From: Lachnospiraceae bacterium NK4A179
GTDB taxonomy: Bacteria; Bacillota; Clostridia; Lachnospirales; Lachnospiraceae
Reading direction: 5' to 3'
Length of the DNA stretch: 62,583 nt
NCBI GenBank assembly: GCA_000421045.1
Contig: ATWC01000014.1
Span: forward strand, 1-62,583
This document shows positions 39,650-45,537 of this stretch, piece by piece. Made by a program: the position numbers and the translations under genes. The notes below the pieces were generated by a model. It made no database searches. It had not been told where the DNA came from and was given only the letters and a program-made list of their open reading frames with translations. Within the stretch, counting starts at the first letter, position 1; each line of letters starts with the position of its first letter.

Positions 39650-40684
39650 ATGGCTTACAGGAAAGAACAAAACGATACACCTGATCTGATAACAGATGAT
39701 CTTAAAAGCGGACATTTTAAGCGTTTTTATCTGCTTACAGGAGATGAGACCTACTTAAGGGACATGGCTGCAGGAAGGCTCAAAAAGGCCCTCATGCCGG
39801 AAATGCCCGAGATGAACTATGTTTCTTTCGACGGCCGCTTCACAAAAGGAAAAGAGTTAACCGAGGCTTTGATACAGGCAGGTGACACTCTCCCCTTCTT
39901 CGCGGACAAACGTCTTATATTTGTCAACGCATCCGGTTTCTTTAAAAAAGCAAACGAAGAATTCACTGAATATATAAAAACCGCTCCTGAAACAACCGCT
40001 TTCATCTTTACCGAAAACGAAGTGGACAAAAGACTCGGGCTTTCAAAGTTCTTTGCTAAAGAAGGACGTATAGCGGAGTATGAGCGCAGTGCCGAAAATC
40101 TGAAGATACCTATTCTTACGATATTAAAAAAGAATAATAAGCAGATACGTCCGTCAACATATGAGCGCCTCATCGAAAAAACCGGCATAGATATGGAATT
40201 CATAAGCCATGAGCTGGAAAAACTCATAGCCTACACCGGCGAAAGGACCGAGATAACTATGCAGGATGTGGAATATGTTGTAAGCGACCGCACGGAGGAA
40301 GACAGCTTCGCGCTTGCCAATGCCATGTCTGAACGTGACGGGCGCAAGGCTCTGGATGCCTATTACGATATGATCCGTCTGGGCTCCAACATGATAGGTG
40401 TGATAACAATGCTCTATCATCAGTTCAATGTGCTACTTATGATCAAAGGCATGTTGAAAAAAGGCATGAATAATGAAGCCATGGGAAAGAAACTCGGCTA
40501 CAAGCCATTTGCCGTAGGCAAACGTGTTGCTGCAGCATCGCATTACACGGAAAGGGAAATTAAAAGTTTTATCAACGAATGTGCCGATACAAGAGAGAAT
40601 ATAACAAAAGGACTGGCAGATCCAAATCTGTCAGTCGAAAAACTGATAATTAAATACAGCAGCGGACTTAAAACATCACTTTGA
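39650..40684 (+). CDS. holA: DNA polymerase III delta subunit
   Basis: 344 residues. FYLLTGDETYLRDMAAGRLK is the degenerate nucleotide-binding start of the HolA family, and the C-terminal collar domain is recognisable (FALANAMSERDGRKAL, YHQFNVLLMIKGML). It opens the sliding clamp within the clamp loader. There is no Shine-Dalgarno site upstream; a leaderless mRNA is predicted. The last 9 bp overlap the convergent transglutaminase-like gene. Confidence 0.9.
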   Translation: MAYRKEQNDTPDLITDDLKSGHFKRFYLLTGDETYLRDMAAGRLKKALMPEMPEMNYVSFDGRFTKGKELTEALIQAGDTLPFFADKRLIFVNASGFFKKANEEFTEYIKTAPETTAFIFTENEVDKRLGLSKFFAKEGRIAEYERSAENLKIPILTILKKNNKQIRPSTYERLIEKTGIDMEFISHELEKLIAYTGERTEITMQDVEYVVSDRTEEDSFALANAMSERDGRKALDAYYDMIRLGSNMIGVITMLYHQFNVLLMIKGMLKKGMNNEAMGKKLGYKPFAVGKRVAAASHYTEREIKSFINECADTRENITKGLADPNLSVEKLIIKYSSGLKTSL

Positions 40685-41503
40685 ATAAACGATGCCTTTG
40701 ATAGAAGTCTGTATGTTTGAATGATACCCGTCAGAAGCAGTAGCCTTTGACATATTCAGATATTGTTTCTGCTTAGCTTTGTTATCGTTATCGTAATAGC
40801 ACACATCATAAAGATGCCACCCGTCAGCCTCCTGAATAGCAGACCAGGCATGAACATCATTTGTTACAAGCATAGTGGGAATATGCATCGGTGCGATGCA
40901 TGTATAATCAACACATCCGGTAGTAGGATCGATCGGAAGAAAGCTTATCATGGAATCAAACGCTGTTGCATAAGTCGTACATACTCCCTTACCGGTCGTG
41001 AAACAGCTCATTGCATTTTGATAAGAAATTAGCGTATTCCTGTCTATCATTGAGCGATGATCATAGGTCATTCGATCTGCAACCCAGTCAGCCGTAAGCT
41101 TTATCGCAACACTCTTTGAAGTCCCCTGTGGAACTATATTCTTCATATTAAGGGCAAGCCAGCTTTCCGTCTGTGCATGCATGCTCTGAAGAGTCTTAAC
41201 ATCAGCTGCGGAAAGGACCATTGTATATATGCCGTTTTTCTTGAGGAATTTTACATCGATATATGAGAGTCCGCCGGCTTCCTTATACACAGCGTCTATC
41301 TGGGCCAGCCCCAGCCTGTAGGACGTGTCAACATCCTGTGACTCTGTACCGGCAAGAGCATAATATCCATCCTGAACAGGAACGAACTGGAGACCGCTTT
41401 CTCCGGCCGCCATAGACTTTGAAGAAAGCGCGCAGAAAGCAATGCAGGCCACTAAAAGCCCCTGTAACATTATTATGATCAGTTTTCTTATGCTTCCTGC
41501 CAT
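40676..41503 (-). CDS. Secreted transglutaminase-like protein under c-di-GMP riboswitch control
   Basis: 275 residues with a signal peptide (IIIMLQGLLVACIAFCALSS, cleavage near SMA). The C-terminal half holds a transglutaminase-core triad: Cys in GKGVCTTYATAF, His in NDVHAWSAI and Asp in WHLYDVCYYDND. Such proteins act as cysteine proteases or cross-linkers at the cell surface. AGGAGGAA precedes the ATG. The 5' leader contains a c-di-GMP-I aptamer, so expression should follow the c-di-GMP level set by cyclases such as the one encoded just upstream. Confidence 0.88.
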   Translation of the reverse strand: MAGSIRKLIIIMLQGLLVACIAFCALSSKSMAAGESGLQFVPVQDGYYALAGTESQDVDTSYRLGLAQIDAVYKEAGGLSYIDVKFLKKNGIYTMVLSAADVKTLQSMHAQTESWLALNMKNIVPQGTSKSVAIKLTADWVADRMTYDHRSMIDRNTLISYQNAMSCFTTGKGVCTTYATAFDSMISFLPIDPTTGCVDYTCIAPMHIPTMLVTNDVHAWSAIQEADGWHLYDVCYYDNDNKAKQKQYLNMSKATASDGYHSNIQTSIKGIVYSK

Positions 41504-41562
41504 AATATGCTCTTTCCTCCTGCTTTTTACACAAAAGAAAAAACATTCCTGCGAAGAGATAC

Positions 41563-41582
41563 CGTCACAAAAATGTCCTAAT
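41563..41582 (-). promoter_or_regulatory. Anti-aptamer segment of the riboswitch expression platform
   Basis: TTTGTGACG (41571-41563, minus strand) is a perfect 9-base complement of CGTCACAAA in the aptamer core (41630-41622), extendable by a G-U pair. It can therefore pull the core out of the ligand-binding fold, making the aptamer and this pairing mutually exclusive. Confidence 0.6.
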
Positions 41583-41653
41583 AATCTGCAACTGGCTGGC
41601 TTAAAAATAAGTCCCTTTAGCTTTGTGACGCCGGATCACTCCGGTTGTACCTT
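41583..41653 (-). ncRNA. Cyclic-di-GMP-I (GEMM) riboswitch aptamer
   Basis: On the minus strand, a P2 hairpin CCGGA-GTGA-TCCGG with a GNRA tetraloop is followed by CGTCACAAAGCTA, matching the conserved GACGCAAAGCYA core, then GGGACTT paired with AAGCC across a T-rich loop, and finally GCCAGTTGC, matching the GCCAGGUUGC end. This order is that of c-di-GMP-I aptamers; a cGAMP-specific subtype cannot be excluded. The aptamer ends about 80 nt before the start codon of the transglutaminase gene. A T-rich run (TTTTTTCTTTTG) lies in the expression platform. Confidence 0.83.
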
Positions 41654-41759
41654 TGAAGTGTATGTAATTTTCTTTTTGTAACCCAAACAGTTCTGACTGT
41701 TGCCCCAGCCATGAACAATACCCCTACATAATGTATATTATCAGATTACAAAAATGATT

Positions 41760-42851
41760 TCAACTGTTTCCCTCTTTTTTCTTTAGCATATCTTTTATCC
41801 TTGCCTTATCCGCATACATGGCCTTATCCGCCAATGCATATGTTGTCTTGAAATCATCCTTCCACTCATGCATGCCGAATGCAAAGGTATACTTTCCCGT
41901 AAGCTGACAATCCTTCAGCCTTTGCGAGAATAAATTGAGCACATTTTTTGATCCCGTCATGCACAGCACGCAAAACTCATCACCTCCGACTCTGTACAGC
42001 GAACAGTGAGCCGGAAGCACATCGCTTATCTTATTGGCGATGGTCTTTATAGCCTCATCTCCGGCCTGATGGCCCATGGTATCATTTATAGTCTTTAAGT
42101 TATTCAGGTCGATACTGTAAACAGCTGATATGGAATTGTCACTCTTCGTGGCATCCGCAAAAAAGCTTGTACGGTTAAATGCCCCTGTAAGCACGTCCAT
42201 CTTGAAATAACTGATATGAATATACAGGTAATAGAAAGTGATATTCAGTGAAATGACGCCGATCAGTATCCCACGAAGGGCATAGATCAGTTCCACGCCT
42301 GTACCCAGGAGGCAGAGCAACACCTCTATTATCACTATAATGCCCTCTTCCTGCCTGCCGCGCATGATATAGCGTATCGCAAGCACAAGGCAGAAGCCGA
42401 GATAAATAAGCATCACGATATGCGGTGTAAAGGCAAGCGGTCCGCGCCTGACAGAACCGTCTTCCCCATACCAATAAACAAGTTTTGTAAAGAAGGCAAG
42501 CGAAGTGATCAGCAGATTCACTACCGCAGGAATATGCACGATCATCTTGCGATTGAAGCTCATATCGCGCATCACGACCAGTACAAGCGAAAGCAATATG
42601 AGTATCCTCAGATTGTAACCCACAAAGGCCGTGAAGACATGAAGCATGCCTGTCGACATCCTGTCAAACAGGTAGTAATCGATATTATCGAATAATACAA
42701 GTATAAGCAGGAGCAGAAGCATAGGCCAGAATTTCCTGCTCAGTTCATGCTCAAACCTGTCATTCACCACAATGAACACAAAAAGAAACAGCAGCGAAAC
42801 AAGCGGCAGAAAATTTAACTGTATCAAATTCTGCAGAACATGGTTATACAT
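41760..42851 (-). CDS. Membrane-bound diguanylate cyclase
   Basis: 363 residues: about seven membrane helices in the first ~205 residues, then a GGDEF domain with DVLTGAFNRTSFF, SIDLNNLKTINDTMGHQAGD and the intact loop YRVGGDEFCVLC. No RxxD inhibitory site is seen before the loop. The membrane part probably senses a signal. The start is 3 bp from the SDR stop, behind GGTGATC, so it belongs to the sugar cassette operon. The c-di-GMP riboswitch gene follows downstream on the same strand. Confidence 0.92.
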   Translation of the reverse strand: MYNHVLQNLIQLNFLPLVSLLFLFVFIVVNDRFEHELSRKFWPMLLLLLILVLFDNIDYYLFDRMSTGMLHVFTAFVGYNLRILILLSLVLVVMRDMSFNRKMIVHIPAVVNLLITSLAFFTKLVYWYGEDGSVRRGPLAFTPHIVMLIYLGFCLVLAIRYIMRGRQEEGIIVIIEVLLCLLGTGVELIYALRGILIGVISLNITFYYLYIHISYFKMDVLTGAFNRTSFFADATKSDNSISAVYSIDLNNLKTINDTMGHQAGDEAIKTIANKISDVLPAHCSLYRVGGDEFCVLCMTGSKNVLNLFSQRLKDCQLTGKYTFAFGMHEWKDDFKTTYALADKAMYADKARIKDMLKKKEGNS

Positions 42852-42854
42852 TGA

Positions 42855-43700
42855 TCACCAACTGGTCCTTCCACCATCACAGACAACTGTTGATCCTGTC
42901 ATATATGTTGCAGCATCCGAGATCATATAAAGAATAGTGCATACATATTCATCCGGATCGCTCATCCTTCCGAGCGGTATAAGATTGCTTATCTTGTTTA
43001 CGAATTCTTCATCCTGTCCGTTTGACAGGCTTGCCGGGCAGAGCGTATTGACCCTTATCCCTTTTTCAGCCCAGTAAATCGCCAGATACTTTGTAAGGCC
43101 AATGATGCCATGCTTCACAACGGAATACGAAACAGGTTTTACCGTCTGCTGCTCTTCAGGCAGACCTTCTTTTCTGTAAATACGCTGATCGGGAGCAATA
43201 AGACCATAGTCGGATGAGATATTAAGTACAACACCTTTCTTTTGCTTCTCCATAACTTCTCCGAAGACCTGCGCACAGAGCATGGCTCCCGTAAGTCCAA
43301 CAGCCAGATCCTGATTCCATATATCAACAGGGAAATTGGTAAAGCGCATCGCTCCCAGATTCTTGGAGCCACCTTCCACCTTAGGGTTATTGGCAGCATT
43401 GTTTATAAGCACATCTATATGTCCGTATTTTTCCAAAAGCTCATCACGGACTTTGGAAAGAGCATCTCTATCTGTGATATCAGTAACTATTGTCTCATAC
43501 TTTATATCATCACCATACTCTTCCTTAAGTGTTTTTATATTCCTGTCCATTCCCGCCTGAATTATATCAAGCAGTACCGGAATACCGCCGCCCTCTGTAA
43601 TGGCTTCGGCATGCTTTAAACCAATAAGACCGCCACCGCCGGTCACTATGCAGACTCTGCCGCTTATATCAAATCTCCTGGTATACTTATCCATTATCAT
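42855..43700 (-). CDS. Short-chain dehydrogenase/reductase (PtmA-like)
   Basis: 281 residues with Rossmann motif TGGGGLIGLKHAEA, NNAAN, catalytic Ser in LNISSDYG and YSVVKHG, and a C-terminal TGSTVVCDGG. It overlaps the oxidoreductase gene by 4 bp. The order cytidylyltransferase, Gfo/Idh oxidoreductase, SDR recalls surface-glycan and flagellin-glycosylation loci (ptm/leg-type genes), suggesting modification of a nucleotide-activated sugar. Confidence 0.88.
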   Translation of the reverse strand: MIMDKYTRRFDISGRVCIVTGGGGLIGLKHAEAITEGGGIPVLLDIIQAGMDRNIKTLKEEYGDDIKYETIVTDITDRDALSKVRDELLEKYGHIDVLINNAANNPKVEGGSKNLGAMRFTNFPVDIWNQDLAVGLTGAMLCAQVFGEVMEKQKKGVVLNISSDYGLIAPDQRIYRKEGLPEEQQTVKPVSYSVVKHGIIGLTKYLAIYWAEKGIRVNTLCPASLSNGQDEEFVNKISNLIPLGRMSDPDEYVCTILYMISDAATYMTGSTVVCDGGRTSW

Positions 43701-44752
43701 GACAGTTCAATCTCCTCTATTCTTACAGCTCTGTTTTCGGCTGATGATTTTTTTGCGGCAAGTGCCATCTTAAGTCCGGTTATCCCCGCATCAAGCGATG
43801 AAGAAGGCGTCTTCTTTTCCTTTATGCATTCCGCAAATTCCCTGAGTTCCTCAATGAACATATCATTGCGCACAAAACCTTCATGCGTGATCGTCTGCAC
43901 CGGCTCATCACCCGCATATATATTTGTTACCGCAGCATTGAAATCTGCTTCTATCCTTCCTTTCTCACAGACAACCTTCAGCCTGTGCACAGGAGGAAAC
44001 TGCAGAAAATCCGTATGAGAATATACAGTGATCATCCTGCCGTCATTTTCCTTAAAACGATAAAGCGATCCTGCTGTATCTTCCACATCAACTGAAAGCC
44101 CGCTTAATGTGCTGCATACCGAATATACATCAACAGGTGTGCCAAACAGAAGTTGCAGATAATCAAGACAGTGTATCTGCAGATTGAGCACGGGTCCGCC
44201 TCCCATATCCTTCCTTGCCATATAAGTATCTTTATAATCCTCATATCTGTGCATGGTAGTAAGACGCTCGGAAAATTCGTTATCAACGCTTATTACTTTT
44301 CCAAGTCTTTCATCCCCCAGCACAGATCTTACATCTGAAATACACGGATGGAAGCGGTTCTGATAACCCATATAAAGAACGGTACCTTTTTCATCAACAA
44401 TACGCTTCAGTTCCTTAAGTCCATCCGTACAGTCCGATACAGGCTTCTCAAGGAAAACTGCAACGCCGCTCTGCGCAGCTTTCAGCGCAGTCTCGGTATG
44501 CTTTGATGTGATGTTCGTTACAAATACCGCATCAGGCTTTTCTGAAAGAGCCTTATCAAGATCATCATAAACCTTTATCCCAAACTCCTTTTCAAGATCG
44601 ACACCATCCCTGATCTGCATATCATCGGAGAAGGTCCTGGAAAGTCGTCTTACACGATAGGCAAGTATTTCCGCTTCTTCGCCGAACAGTCGTTTAATAT
44701 TTCTTAAATGTCTCTGACCTATGCTTCCGAGGCCAACCATCAGAATCTTCAT
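43697..44752 (-). CDS. Gfo/Idh/MocA-family sugar oxidoreductase
   Basis: 351 residues: N-terminal NAD(P)-binding Rossmann fold MVGLGSIGQRHLRNIKRLFG, the family EKP motif (AVFLEKPVSDC) and a C-terminal substrate domain. It overlaps both neighbours by 4 bp, so all three cassette genes are translationally coupled. The substrate is probably a sugar or nucleotide sugar. Confidence 0.9.
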   Translation of the reverse strand: MKILMVGLGSIGQRHLRNIKRLFGEEAEILAYRVRRLSRTFSDDMQIRDGVDLEKEFGIKVYDDLDKALSEKPDAVFVTNITSKHTETALKAAQSGVAVFLEKPVSDCTDGLKELKRIVDEKGTVLYMGYQNRFHPCISDVRSVLGDERLGKVISVDNEFSERLTTMHRYEDYKDTYMARKDMGGGPVLNLQIHCLDYLQLLFGTPVDVYSVCSTLSGLSVDVEDTAGSLYRFKENDGRMITVYSHTDFLQFPPVHRLKVVCEKGRIEADFNAAVTNIYAGDEPVQTITHEGFVRNDMFIEELREFAECIKEKKTPSSSLDAGITGLKMALAAKKSSAENRAVRIEEIELS

Positions 44753-45537
44753 AAGCCCGCCTCTTCCAAAGTCTTGTAATTTGCCTCAAGATAATCCATC
44801 AGTTCATTCCTGTGATCCATTGCAAAATACTCAAGGAATTCAATATCCTTTGCGGCATCCACATCCACTCCGCCGGGAACTTCATAACCTATCATCCTGT
44901 CCCCGTGCATCAGATCATTCTCAATTATATATGAAGTACGCAGAACATCCGCATATCCGTCAGGGATATATACATCCTCAAAGGATTGTCTGGGGTTGTT
45001 CGCATCATCAAGGGTTATGCCTTCCTTTATAGGCTTGAAATATCCATCATCTTTAAGAGCAAACCACTTATAGGGAGTGTTTGATGCAAGATGAGCAGAA
45101 CGGAGACTGGTCGCGGTATCATCGTTCTTCATAAGTTCAACGGCTTTGCTCACAAGCTCTGGCTTTCTGAACGGATACGTAGGTCTGAGATGAAGAAAAA
45201 ATTCAGGGAGCTTCTTTTCATTTTCATAAAGCCATCCTATTGCATGCTCCATAAACTCTATATCTGCCGACTTGTCACCGGCAAACTGAGCAGGTCTTAA
45301 AAAAGGCACCTCTGCTCCGTAATACTTTGCGATCTTGGCATAAGATTCAGAATCCGTGCTTACGATAATGCGCGACACCCCTGATGTGAGTTTTGCCGCA
45401 GCTATCGAATACGCAAGCATCGGATAGCCCTTAAGACACCTTATATTCTTGTTTTTAACACCCTTACTTCCCGATCTGGCAGGGATTATTGCATATACAC
45501 TGTCATTCTCAATGCTTTCCAGCAGTTTTCTGTCCAT
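44749..45537 (-). CDS. Acylneuraminate cytidylyltransferase family protein
   Basis: 262 residues starting at MDRKLLESIENDS behind GGAGG. AIIPARSGSKGVKNKN is the CTP-binding motif of CMP-sugar synthetases such as NeuA, PseF and LegF, and FLHLRPTYPFR and PGGVDVDAAKDIEF are also conserved. It should activate a nonulosonic acid with CTP. No synthase, epimerase or aminotransferase for such a sugar lies in the window. A small stem (TGTGTC/GACACA) lies just before the ribosome binding site. Confidence 0.9.
   Translation of the reverse strand: MDRKLLESIENDSVYAIIPARSGSKGVKNKNIRCLKGYPMLAYSIAAAKLTSGVSRIIVSTDSESYAKIAKYYGAEVPFLRPAQFAGDKSADIEFMEHAIGWLYENEKKLPEFFLHLRPTYPFRKPELVSKAVELMKNDDTATSLRSAHLASNTPYKWFALKDDGYFKPIKEGITLDDANNPRQSFEDVYIPDGYADVLRTSYIIENDLMHGDRMIGYEVPGGVDVDAAKDIEFLEYFAMDHRNELMDYLEANYKTLEEAGL

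Follow-up and report, generated by a model that had tools for sequence, protein, structure and literature searches.

The closest described systems are found in Clostridioides difficile, whose functional class-I c-di-GMP riboswitches are OFF switches acting by termination, according to one report (PMC6366702); in another, all but one of 12 are of this kind (PMC3649979). Cd1/flgB and Cdi1_12/zmp1 each combine a c-di-GMP-I aptamer with terminator attenuation and repression by c-di-GMP, and Cdi1_12 precedes the gene for PPEP-1, a secreted enzyme that targets surface proteins (PMC3649979 and PMC6366702). Within the Bacillota, c-di-GMP-I arrays have been described before COG1305 transglutaminase-like genes as tandems of two or three aptamers (PMC12452182), and in the LapD/LapG system a secreted protease is held back at high c-di-GMP (PMC3032545).

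Here, we analyzed a locus within a 62,583-nucleotide stretch of contig ATWC01000014.1 of Lachnospiraceae bacterium NK4A179 (the window), in which a c-di-GMP-I aptamer precedes a gene encoding a secreted transglutaminase-like protein (TGase). The locus resembles the C. difficile examples in its aptamer class and predicted attenuation by a terminator; however, repression is predicted here, and the regulated protein is transglutaminase-like, whereas PPEP-1 is a zinc metalloprotease. With the COG1305-linked arrays it shares both the aptamer class and the kind of gene, but only one aptamer was found. LapG is sequestered by a protein receptor, whereas in the present locus control would be exerted on the gene by an RNA. 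Class-I OFF riboswitches and the link between c-di-GMP-I and transglutaminases are already in print, and the locus would add another case. Our preferred reading, with a probability of about 0.72, is a class-I c-di-GMP riboswitch that acts as a transcription-attenuation OFF switch on the TGase gene, with the general c-di-GMP pool as its ligand.

Layout of the locus and the c-di-GMP-I aptamer

All parts of the locus lie on the minus strand. A three-gene sugar cassette encodes a nonulosonate-type, PseF-like CMP-sugar cytidylyltransferase (44749..45537; CTP_transf_3, PF02348, 74.8 bits), a Gfo/Idh/MocA oxidoreductase (43697..44752; PF01408, 69.2 bits) and a short-chain dehydrogenase (SDR; 42855..43700; PF13561, 134.7 bits). 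Judged by its sequence, the cytidylyltransferase is a CMP-sugar enzyme related to PseF, although it does not reach the score of that family (TIGR03584, the best NCBIfam match, 119.9 bits against a cut-off of 205.7). The stop codon of the SDR gene is separated by exactly 3 bp from the ATG of a gene for a 363-residue membrane GGDEF protein (41760..42851), which is a putative diguanylate cyclase, its predicted activity resting at the sequence level on a GGDEF domain of 71.8 bits (PF00990) and an intact VGGDEF loop. Simple hydropathy revealed about six to seven hydrophobic segments within its first ~215 residues, which is compatible with the seven-helix protein of the original prediction. The aptamer begins 98 bp beyond the GGDEF stop codon (41584..41661) and is followed by the TGase gene (40676..41503; 275 residues). 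The profile and covariance matches thus bore out the original prediction as regards the parts, their positions and single orientation, the 3-bp coupling of the cyclase gene to the cassette, the intact active-site loop, and the placement of the aptamer between the GGDEF and TGase genes.

A covariance search of the region 41560-41660 had been proposed as a check; run with the window against all of Rfam, it placed a c-di-GMP-I (GEMM-I) aptamer at the expected position (RF01051, 46.6 bits, gathering score 35, E value of 5.7e-06) as the sole match in the window at the gathering threshold. The ligand-contact residues, which we assigned by Vc2 numbering (G20, A47, C92), are G, A and C in this aptamer, and the GNRA tetraloop is present as GUGA. 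Its outer P1 helix is weak, and the constrained fold gave no convincing one, compared with a P1 of about 7 bp in one relative (L024). It also scores lowest among the four c-di-GMP-I aptamers found in the genome. A search of the same genome for c-di-GMP-II riboswitches gave no match, but neither did its controls, so that this negative carries no information.

The expression platform and the predicted direction of the switch

A feature absent from the original prediction is a terminator-like hairpin at 41576-41538, which competes with the aptamer core. Its 5′ arm (ACAUUUUUGUG, 41566..41576) and its 3′ arm (CGCAGGAAUGU, 41538..41553), the latter followed by a U tract, form a predicted hairpin of -11.6 kcal/mol. 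A strand of the aptamer core (CGUCACAAA, 41622..41630) is a perfect 9-nt complement of an anti-aptamer strand (UUUGUGACG, 41563..41571) that overlaps the terminator 5′ arm, and would serve as one arm of an anti-terminator helix. The general terminator scan, with a loop limit of 8, did not list the hairpin of the window; a looser pattern found it and missed those of two relatives (L024 and L025), which are imperfect.

In the computed folds, each of the three TGase leaders in which an aptamer was found, namely, those of the window, L024, and L025, has an expression platform whose pairing competes with that of the aptamer. In each, the core of the aptamer and the 5′ arm of the terminator are complementary over 9 nt, a length reached in 29, 25, and 10 of 2000 dinucleotide shuffles of the downstream part, respectively. 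At one position of the anti-terminator helix, the window has a U-A pair where both relatives have C-G; this compensated pair is a single change, matched by 161 of 500 column shuffles, and hence too little alone. The hairpins of L024 and L025 (-7.7 and -7.2 kcal/mol) likewise precede U runs. Furthermore, seven additional leaders from the genus (L034, L036, L045, L046, L047, L095, and L101) show a complement of 7-8 nt between the other core strand, of the GGCAAAG type, and a predicted terminator 5′ arm. For transcripts ending shortly after the anti-aptamer strand, folding without ligand favored the anti-terminator in all three leaders (-23.4 versus -20.5 kcal/mol in the window, -34.2 versus -27.0 in L024, and -36.5 versus -29.3 in L025). 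Once the folded transcript extended through the terminator, the aptamer together with the terminator reached -28.9 kcal/mol against -27.3 for the anti-terminator in the window, a small difference, and the anti-terminator was still lower in L024 (-38.5 versus -34.5) and L025 (-41.1 versus -36.3). Switching must therefore be kinetic and ligand driven.

Given this complementarity between core and 5′ arm, binding of the ligand would be expected to release the terminator. Without c-di-GMP, the core strand at 41622-41630 would pair with 41563-41571 and occupy the terminator 5′ arm, so that RNA polymerase would read through. With c-di-GMP, the aptamer would hold its core and leave this arm free, the terminator hairpin (41576-41543) would form before the U tract, and no transglutaminase-like product would be made. 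High c-di-GMP probably shuts off the transglutaminase-like gene.

The opposite direction, an ON switch, or action on translation, has to be considered, as class-I riboswitches include both ON and OFF types (PMC6366702) and folding the entire leader without constraints also pairs the region of the ribosome site. The complement, however, links the terminator 5′ arm to the core and not to P1, which means that aptamer and terminator can coexist and that the anti-terminator excludes both; we rejected the ON switch on this ground and consider this pair of readings improbable. A degenerate aptamer that regulates nothing, leaving the gene constitutive as may hold in aptamer-less relatives, would fit the weak P1, the lowest score in the genome, and the absence of a detected aptamer before five of the eight orthologous genes. 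Against it stand the score above threshold, the retained contact residues, and an expression platform that stays matched to the core through the compensated change, and we regard degeneracy as unlikely, if slightly less so than an ON or translational switch. The c-di-GMP-I family also includes variants of the GEMM-Ib type that bind cGAMP, in which Vc2 residue 20 is A. All three TGase leaders have G at the equivalent position; cGAMP was rejected as the ligand for this reason, and sensing of cGAMP, alone or together with c-di-GMP, appears very improbable.

Gene order in relatives and the source of c-di-GMP

The original prediction had joined the sugar cassette, the cyclase, the riboswitch, and the TGase into a local circuit co-expressed with a glycan pathway, and had named conservation of the neighbors as a check. 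Clear TGase orthologues were identified in seven relatives, and in none of them was the GGDEF gene or the cassette a neighbor (0/7); in two of the seven pieces (L022 and L023), the sequence preceding the TGase gene is about 1.1 kb long. The aptamer was retained at the TGase loci of two of the seven (L024 and L025), that is, with three of eight orthologous genes including that of the window; for L009-L013 and L093-L094, a low-stringency Rfam search of flanks of up to 1.5 kb beside the TGase gene gave no c-di-GMP-I aptamer. The proposed circuit fails the check on its neighbors, and we rejected GGDEF-TGase as a conserved unit. On sequence evidence, the GGDEF and sugar genes are real, yet they form no conserved unit with the riboswitch and the TGase.

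In relatives, all three cassette genes occur in 16 of 18 loci and the order of the window in 13. Across 29 relatives, 53 flanks of the cassette were readable, and by profile 7 of these have a GGDEF gene as the immediate neighbor, in four independent placements; with ~1.3% expected per gene this is about ten times expectation. No orthology links these GGDEF proteins between groups, and five of the seven genes have the opposite orientation. The recurrence of unrelated GGDEF genes at a sugar cassette came as a mild surprise.

Could the GGDEF protein nevertheless sense a signal and make c-di-GMP near the nascent leader while being co-expressed with the cassette, and thereby coordinate the supply of glycan with the secreted enzyme? 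The spacings of 3 bp and 98 bp speak for it, and both other aptamer-bearing TGase loci, which belong to one clade, carry a gene for another c-di-GMP-type enzyme, an EAL (phosphodiesterase-type) protein, directly upstream. Outside the EAL domain this protein is weakly similar to the GGDEF protein of the window (18% over 202 columns, E value of 5e-5), and none of the other aptamers among the 45 found in the genus has a GGDEF or EAL gene directly upstream in the flanks examined by motif and profile. The GGDEF genes flanking cassettes add weak residual support. However, the gene order is unconserved, one lineage has a cyclase upstream and the other an enzyme of the phosphodiesterase type, and the sole weak match to the GGDEF query beside a TGase gene of the relatives (22%, L025) falls in the EAL-type gene. 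The GGDEF orthologues of the aptamer-bearing relatives G003 and G027 reside on other contigs with no cassette within about 5 kb, and the GGDEF genes beside cassettes are neither orthologous across groups nor mostly on the same strand. A promoter-like site (41763-41735, 9/12) also lies between the GGDEF gene and the aptamer, though shuffled sequence yields at least as many sites of this kind (13.0 versus 12 observed). Finally, about 32 GGDEF genes feed the pool. We therefore consider a local circuit unlikely, to about the same degree as a degenerate aptamer.

The predicted OFF switch would instead respond to the general c-di-GMP pool of the cell, with the upstream GGDEF gene as one possible contributor among about 32. 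Because 32 GGDEF matches exceed the cut-off in this genome, which also has 13 EAL matches and 4 c-di-GMP-I aptamers, the ligand is presumably drawn from this shared cellular pool.

The transglutaminase-like protein and its possible role

The PF01841 match of the TGase is weak (24.9 bits, cut-off 23), and all eight aligned members match this family at E values of up to 1 (best, 2e-8). Cys175, His218, and Asp233, which we take to be the catalytic triad, are invariant in 8/8 aligned orthologues. The N terminus is a hydrophobic, signal-peptide-like segment, consistent with the secretion implied by the predicted surface enzyme, but inspection by eye revealed neither a lipobox nor an LPXTG-type end that would tie the protein to the surface. 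A search of solved structures with the TGase sequence gave no usable match, and the AlphaFold model (mean pLDDT of 54) is too poor to support a mechanism. Foldseek gave no match to this model at an E value of 0.001 or better; the best, Streptococcus pyogenes TglA (9crn; E value of 9e-3, probability 1.00, 15% identity over 143 columns, TM 0.35), does not allow transfer of function.

LapG is related to the transglutaminase fold. The TGase differs from it in that no LapG-type family is among the six Pfam families matched at E values of up to 1 by any of the eight members. By analogy with LapG and PPEP-1, the enzyme would likely work when c-di-GMP is low and cells are motile or detaching, with surface or extracellular proteins as its targets. 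It is conceivable, though we hold it doubtful, that the locus is a Gram-positive, RNA-built counterpart of LapD/LapG, in which the riboswitch represses a secreted protease (or cross-linker) of the transglutaminase fold whose action frees or remodels surface proteins, and to which c-di-GMP enzymes and the glycan cassette are recurrently drawn because they serve the same surface program.

We found no literature specific to c-di-GMP control of secreted enzymes in Lachnospiraceae, and the locus offers a clear and cheap test case for such control in this family. It also cautions against taking a striking gene order in a single genome for a unit, as its surest part, the riboswitch with the TGase gene, lacks both the GGDEF gene and the cassette as neighbors in the examined relatives.

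Gene block and transglutaminase-like protein

On the minus strand, a CMP-sugar cytidylyltransferase gene (44749..45537), a Gfo/Idh oxidoreductase gene (43697..44752), an SDR gene (42855..43700), a gene encoding a membrane GGDEF protein (41760..42851), a c-di-GMP-I aptamer (41584..41661) and a gene encoding a transglutaminase-like protein (TGase; 40676..41503) follow one another in this order. This confirmed the set of six parts named by the original prediction, all on one strand, including the 3-bp spacing between the end of the SDR gene and the GGDEF start codon; a further 98 bp separate the GGDEF stop from the aptamer.

The match of the TGase to its family is modest (24.9 versus a cut-off of 23 bits), and the residues Cys175, His218 and Asp233 are invariant in all eight aligned orthologues, some of which have approximate starts. 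The N terminus consists of basic residues followed by a hydrophobic segment, and because inspection by eye revealed neither a lipobox nor a sortase-type end, the protein is likelier to be secreted than anchored. A search of solved structures with the TGase sequence gave no useful match. The structural model, built from three sequences, was poor (mean pLDDT of 54), and its best fold match was TglA of Streptococcus pyogenes (E value of 9e-3, with none at 0.001 or better), which we take to be a transglutaminase-like protein. At the level of this model, the match appears to agree with the fold family and is uninformative on the substrate.

Riboswitch and its predicted expression platform

In a covariance-model search, the aptamer scored 46.6 bits, above the gathering score of 35, as the proposed c-di-GMP-I assignment demanded, and it was the sole gathering-threshold match within the 62,583-base window. 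If the Vc2 numbering is applied as we assume, the equivalents of G20, A47 and C92 are G, A and C in all three TGase leaders, namely, that of the window and those of loci L024 and L025 from the related genomes G003 and G027. These contact residues fit c-di-GMP as the probable ligand and are at odds with a cGAMP variant.

A hairpin, ACAUUUUUGUG...CGCAGGAAUGU, followed by U residues, lies 3′ of the aptamer (at least 11 pairs, −11.6 kcal/mol). It was absent from a general terminator scan of the window, in which loops were limited to 8 bases, and was detected with a looser pattern that missed the imperfect hairpins of L024 and L025. The segment UUUGUGACG, which overlaps the 5′ arm of the terminator, is a perfect complement of the aptamer core strand CGUCACAAA. 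Shuffling of the downstream part attained this 9-nt complement in 29 of 2,000 cases, and the equivalent arrangement, present before the orthologous gene in L024 and L025, was attained in 25 and 10 of 2,000 shuffles, respectively. The third pair of the core/terminator-arm helix is U-A in the window and C-G in L024 and L025, so that both sides have changed; this compensated pair is a single event, equalled in 161 of 500 shuffles, and does not reach significance by itself.

In the pre-terminator transcript, the anti-terminator fold lies below the aptamer fold by 2.9 kcal/mol in the window and by 7.2 kcal/mol in both L024 and L025, which would make read-through the default and require ligand to hold the aptamer. 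Since the aptamer and terminator are compatible in the fold comparison, while the anti-terminator excludes both, the riboswitch is predicted to be an OFF switch. Without c-di-GMP, the core strand would pair with the terminator 5′ arm and transcription would continue; with c-di-GMP, the aptamer would be retained and the terminator could form. Three observations run counter to this simple scheme. The P1 helix of the window's aptamer is weak. At full length, the anti-terminator of L024 and L025 is still lower than the aptamer plus terminator, and therefore switching would have to be kinetic. Moreover, when the entire leader is folded without constraints, the ribosome-site region is also paired, which leaves room for a possible translational part of the riboswitch beside the predicted termination.

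Genomic neighborhood of the TGase gene and the sugar cassette

The original prediction had joined the sugar cassette, the GGDEF protein, the riboswitch and the secreted TGase into a local circuit, in which a seven-helix sensor tunes a surface enzyme. This reading was partly supported: the aptamer does precede the gene of a probably secreted TGase, but the expected conserved order failed, as neither the GGDEF gene nor the cassette lies beside the TGase gene in any of seven related loci, two of which (L022 and L023) stop about 1.1 kb upstream of it. The downstream neighbor in the window, presumably a DNA polymerase III delta-type gene, is retained in five of the seven. The GGDEF query gave a weak 22% match in L025, inside an EAL-type gene, and locus L019 has a GGDEF-EAL type frame about 6 kb from the TGase gene. 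In G003 and G027, the orthologues of the GGDEF gene (61% identical) are located on contigs other than that of the TGase, with no cassette genes in the 12 kb fetched; for G027, the one genome of the two for which preceding genes were listed, these are what we take to be a uvrA-like gene and a small gene.

The EAL gene ahead of the L024 and L025 riboswitches has a separate orthologue (61%) on contig C22 of the window's own genome, and the gene after their TGase has one (60%) on contig C10. Thus, the upstream position is held by a cyclase in the lineage of the window and by a phosphodiesterase-type protein in that of L024 and L025. Of the 45 aptamers found in the genus, only those of the three TGase leaders have GGDEF or EAL directly upstream by motif, and a profile search of the aptamer loci added none (flanks of about 1.5 to 2 kb, some shortened by contig ends). 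Three EAL-type genes are clustered just upstream of the riboswitch and TGase in both relatives (L024:2560-8501 and L025:1716-7659), and C22 carries a related EAL-type group without a TGase.

A CMP-sugar gene of this type was found in 30 of 35 genus genomes (E values up to 1e-30), and among the first 18 relatives the three cassette genes occur together in 16, with the order of the window in 13. The association of GGDEF with the cassette arose as a hypothesis in the window and was tested in 29 relatives (L110 to L138), where, with crude ORF calling and approximate denominators, GGDEF genes made up 7 of 53 readable immediate flanks. This is about 10 times the expected rate of approximately 1.3% per gene (1,336 GGDEF matches in roughly 108 Mb; P of about 3e-4, assuming 4 independent placements and about 26 independent flanks), and the same pieces held 2 GGDEF among about 210 other ORFs (Fisher 2e-4). 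The flanking genes are convergent with the cassette in L113, L115 and L116 (one protein, 90 to 98% identical), divergent in L119 and L133, and on the same strand in L122 and L134 (one protein, 80% identical). Because these proteins are not orthologous across groups (partial alignments with about 23 to 36% identity) and, in five of the seven cases, the gene lies on the opposite strand, we regard the enrichment as a lead toward a neighborhood tendency rather than an operon. A protein of L019, presumably sialate/pseudaminate-synthase-like, has 28 to 30% matches close to the cassette in five of the pieces from the first 18 relatives (L111, L112, L114, L115 and L116) and no match in the window.

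Distribution and relation to known systems

At least four c-di-GMP-I aptamers are present in the own genome (150 of 210 first-look candidates scored), together with 33 GGDEF matches in a profile search, 32 of them above the cut-off, and 13 EAL matches. Across the genus, at least 45 aptamers were found in at least 17 of 35 genomes, counts that may be low at up to 91 candidates scored per genome. In the own genome, one aptamer precedes a prepilin-like gene (N_methyl; L007:3729-4469), as in several genus loci, and in the pilin-type leaders of several relatives a terminator arm is complementary to the aptamer core. A third (L006:6076-6744) precedes a small, secreted-looking protein without a Pfam match, flanked by a DUF4015/acyltransferase-type protein before it and presumably a metallo-beta-lactamase-fold protein after it. 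Another aptamer of the own genome (L005:2425-2795) and aptamers of several relatives (L034, L037, L048, L099 and L100) lie ahead of a small helix-turn-helix protein; the proteins of L005 and L037 were compared with HTH_17, and both score below its cut-off. Upstream of the L100 aptamer, the gene, judged by its translation, resembles a conjugation coupling ATPase, a hint that c-di-GMP might control a mobile element. Tandem aptamers occur near a contig end in G017 (L102:1834-1907 and 2105-2178).

The TGase matched 9 of 60 genomes, including its own and one weak case (G010, E value of 4e-4), and the seven others with clear orthologues all belong to the same genus. Among 397 family genomes, three matched at E values up to 1e-20, namely, the own genome, G027 and G350 of another genus, whose two distant homologues (L093 and L094) each have one stop within the matched stretch and no detected c-di-GMP-I aptamer. 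The aptamer exceeded the threshold in two of the seven clear relatives (L024, 45.0 bits; L025, 46.2 bits), and a low-stringency search around the TGase of the other five found none. Mapped onto the protein tree, presence of the aptamer takes two changes, and a single origin stays compatible. Since the three leaders share the platform and, when aligned, have a mean column identity of 83%, we infer one old leader, since lost in some relatives.

Two reports describe the functional class-I c-di-GMP riboswitches of Clostridioides difficile as OFF switches acting by termination, one of which controls secreted PPEP-1, a releaser of surface proteins (PMC6366702, PMC3649979). Entries of a table in PMC12452182 show that, in Bacillota, transglutaminase-like genes of COG1305 can follow tandem c-di-GMP-I aptamers. 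Switch type and target class are thus both already known. The window shares the class-I aptamer and the predicted termination OFF mode with C. difficile, whereas it differs from the COG1305 cases in its single aptamer; a limited literature search found no single-aptamer TGase case in this genus. In Pseudomonas, the secreted protease LapG, under c-di-GMP control via LapD, frees an adhesin (PMC3032545). What stands firmly is a class-I c-di-GMP riboswitch of the ordinary kind, predicted to be OFF, on a gene for a probably secreted transglutaminase-like protein. Judging from its location, its fold family and the PPEP-1 and LapG analogies, the TGase may process extracellular or surface proteins when c-di-GMP is low.
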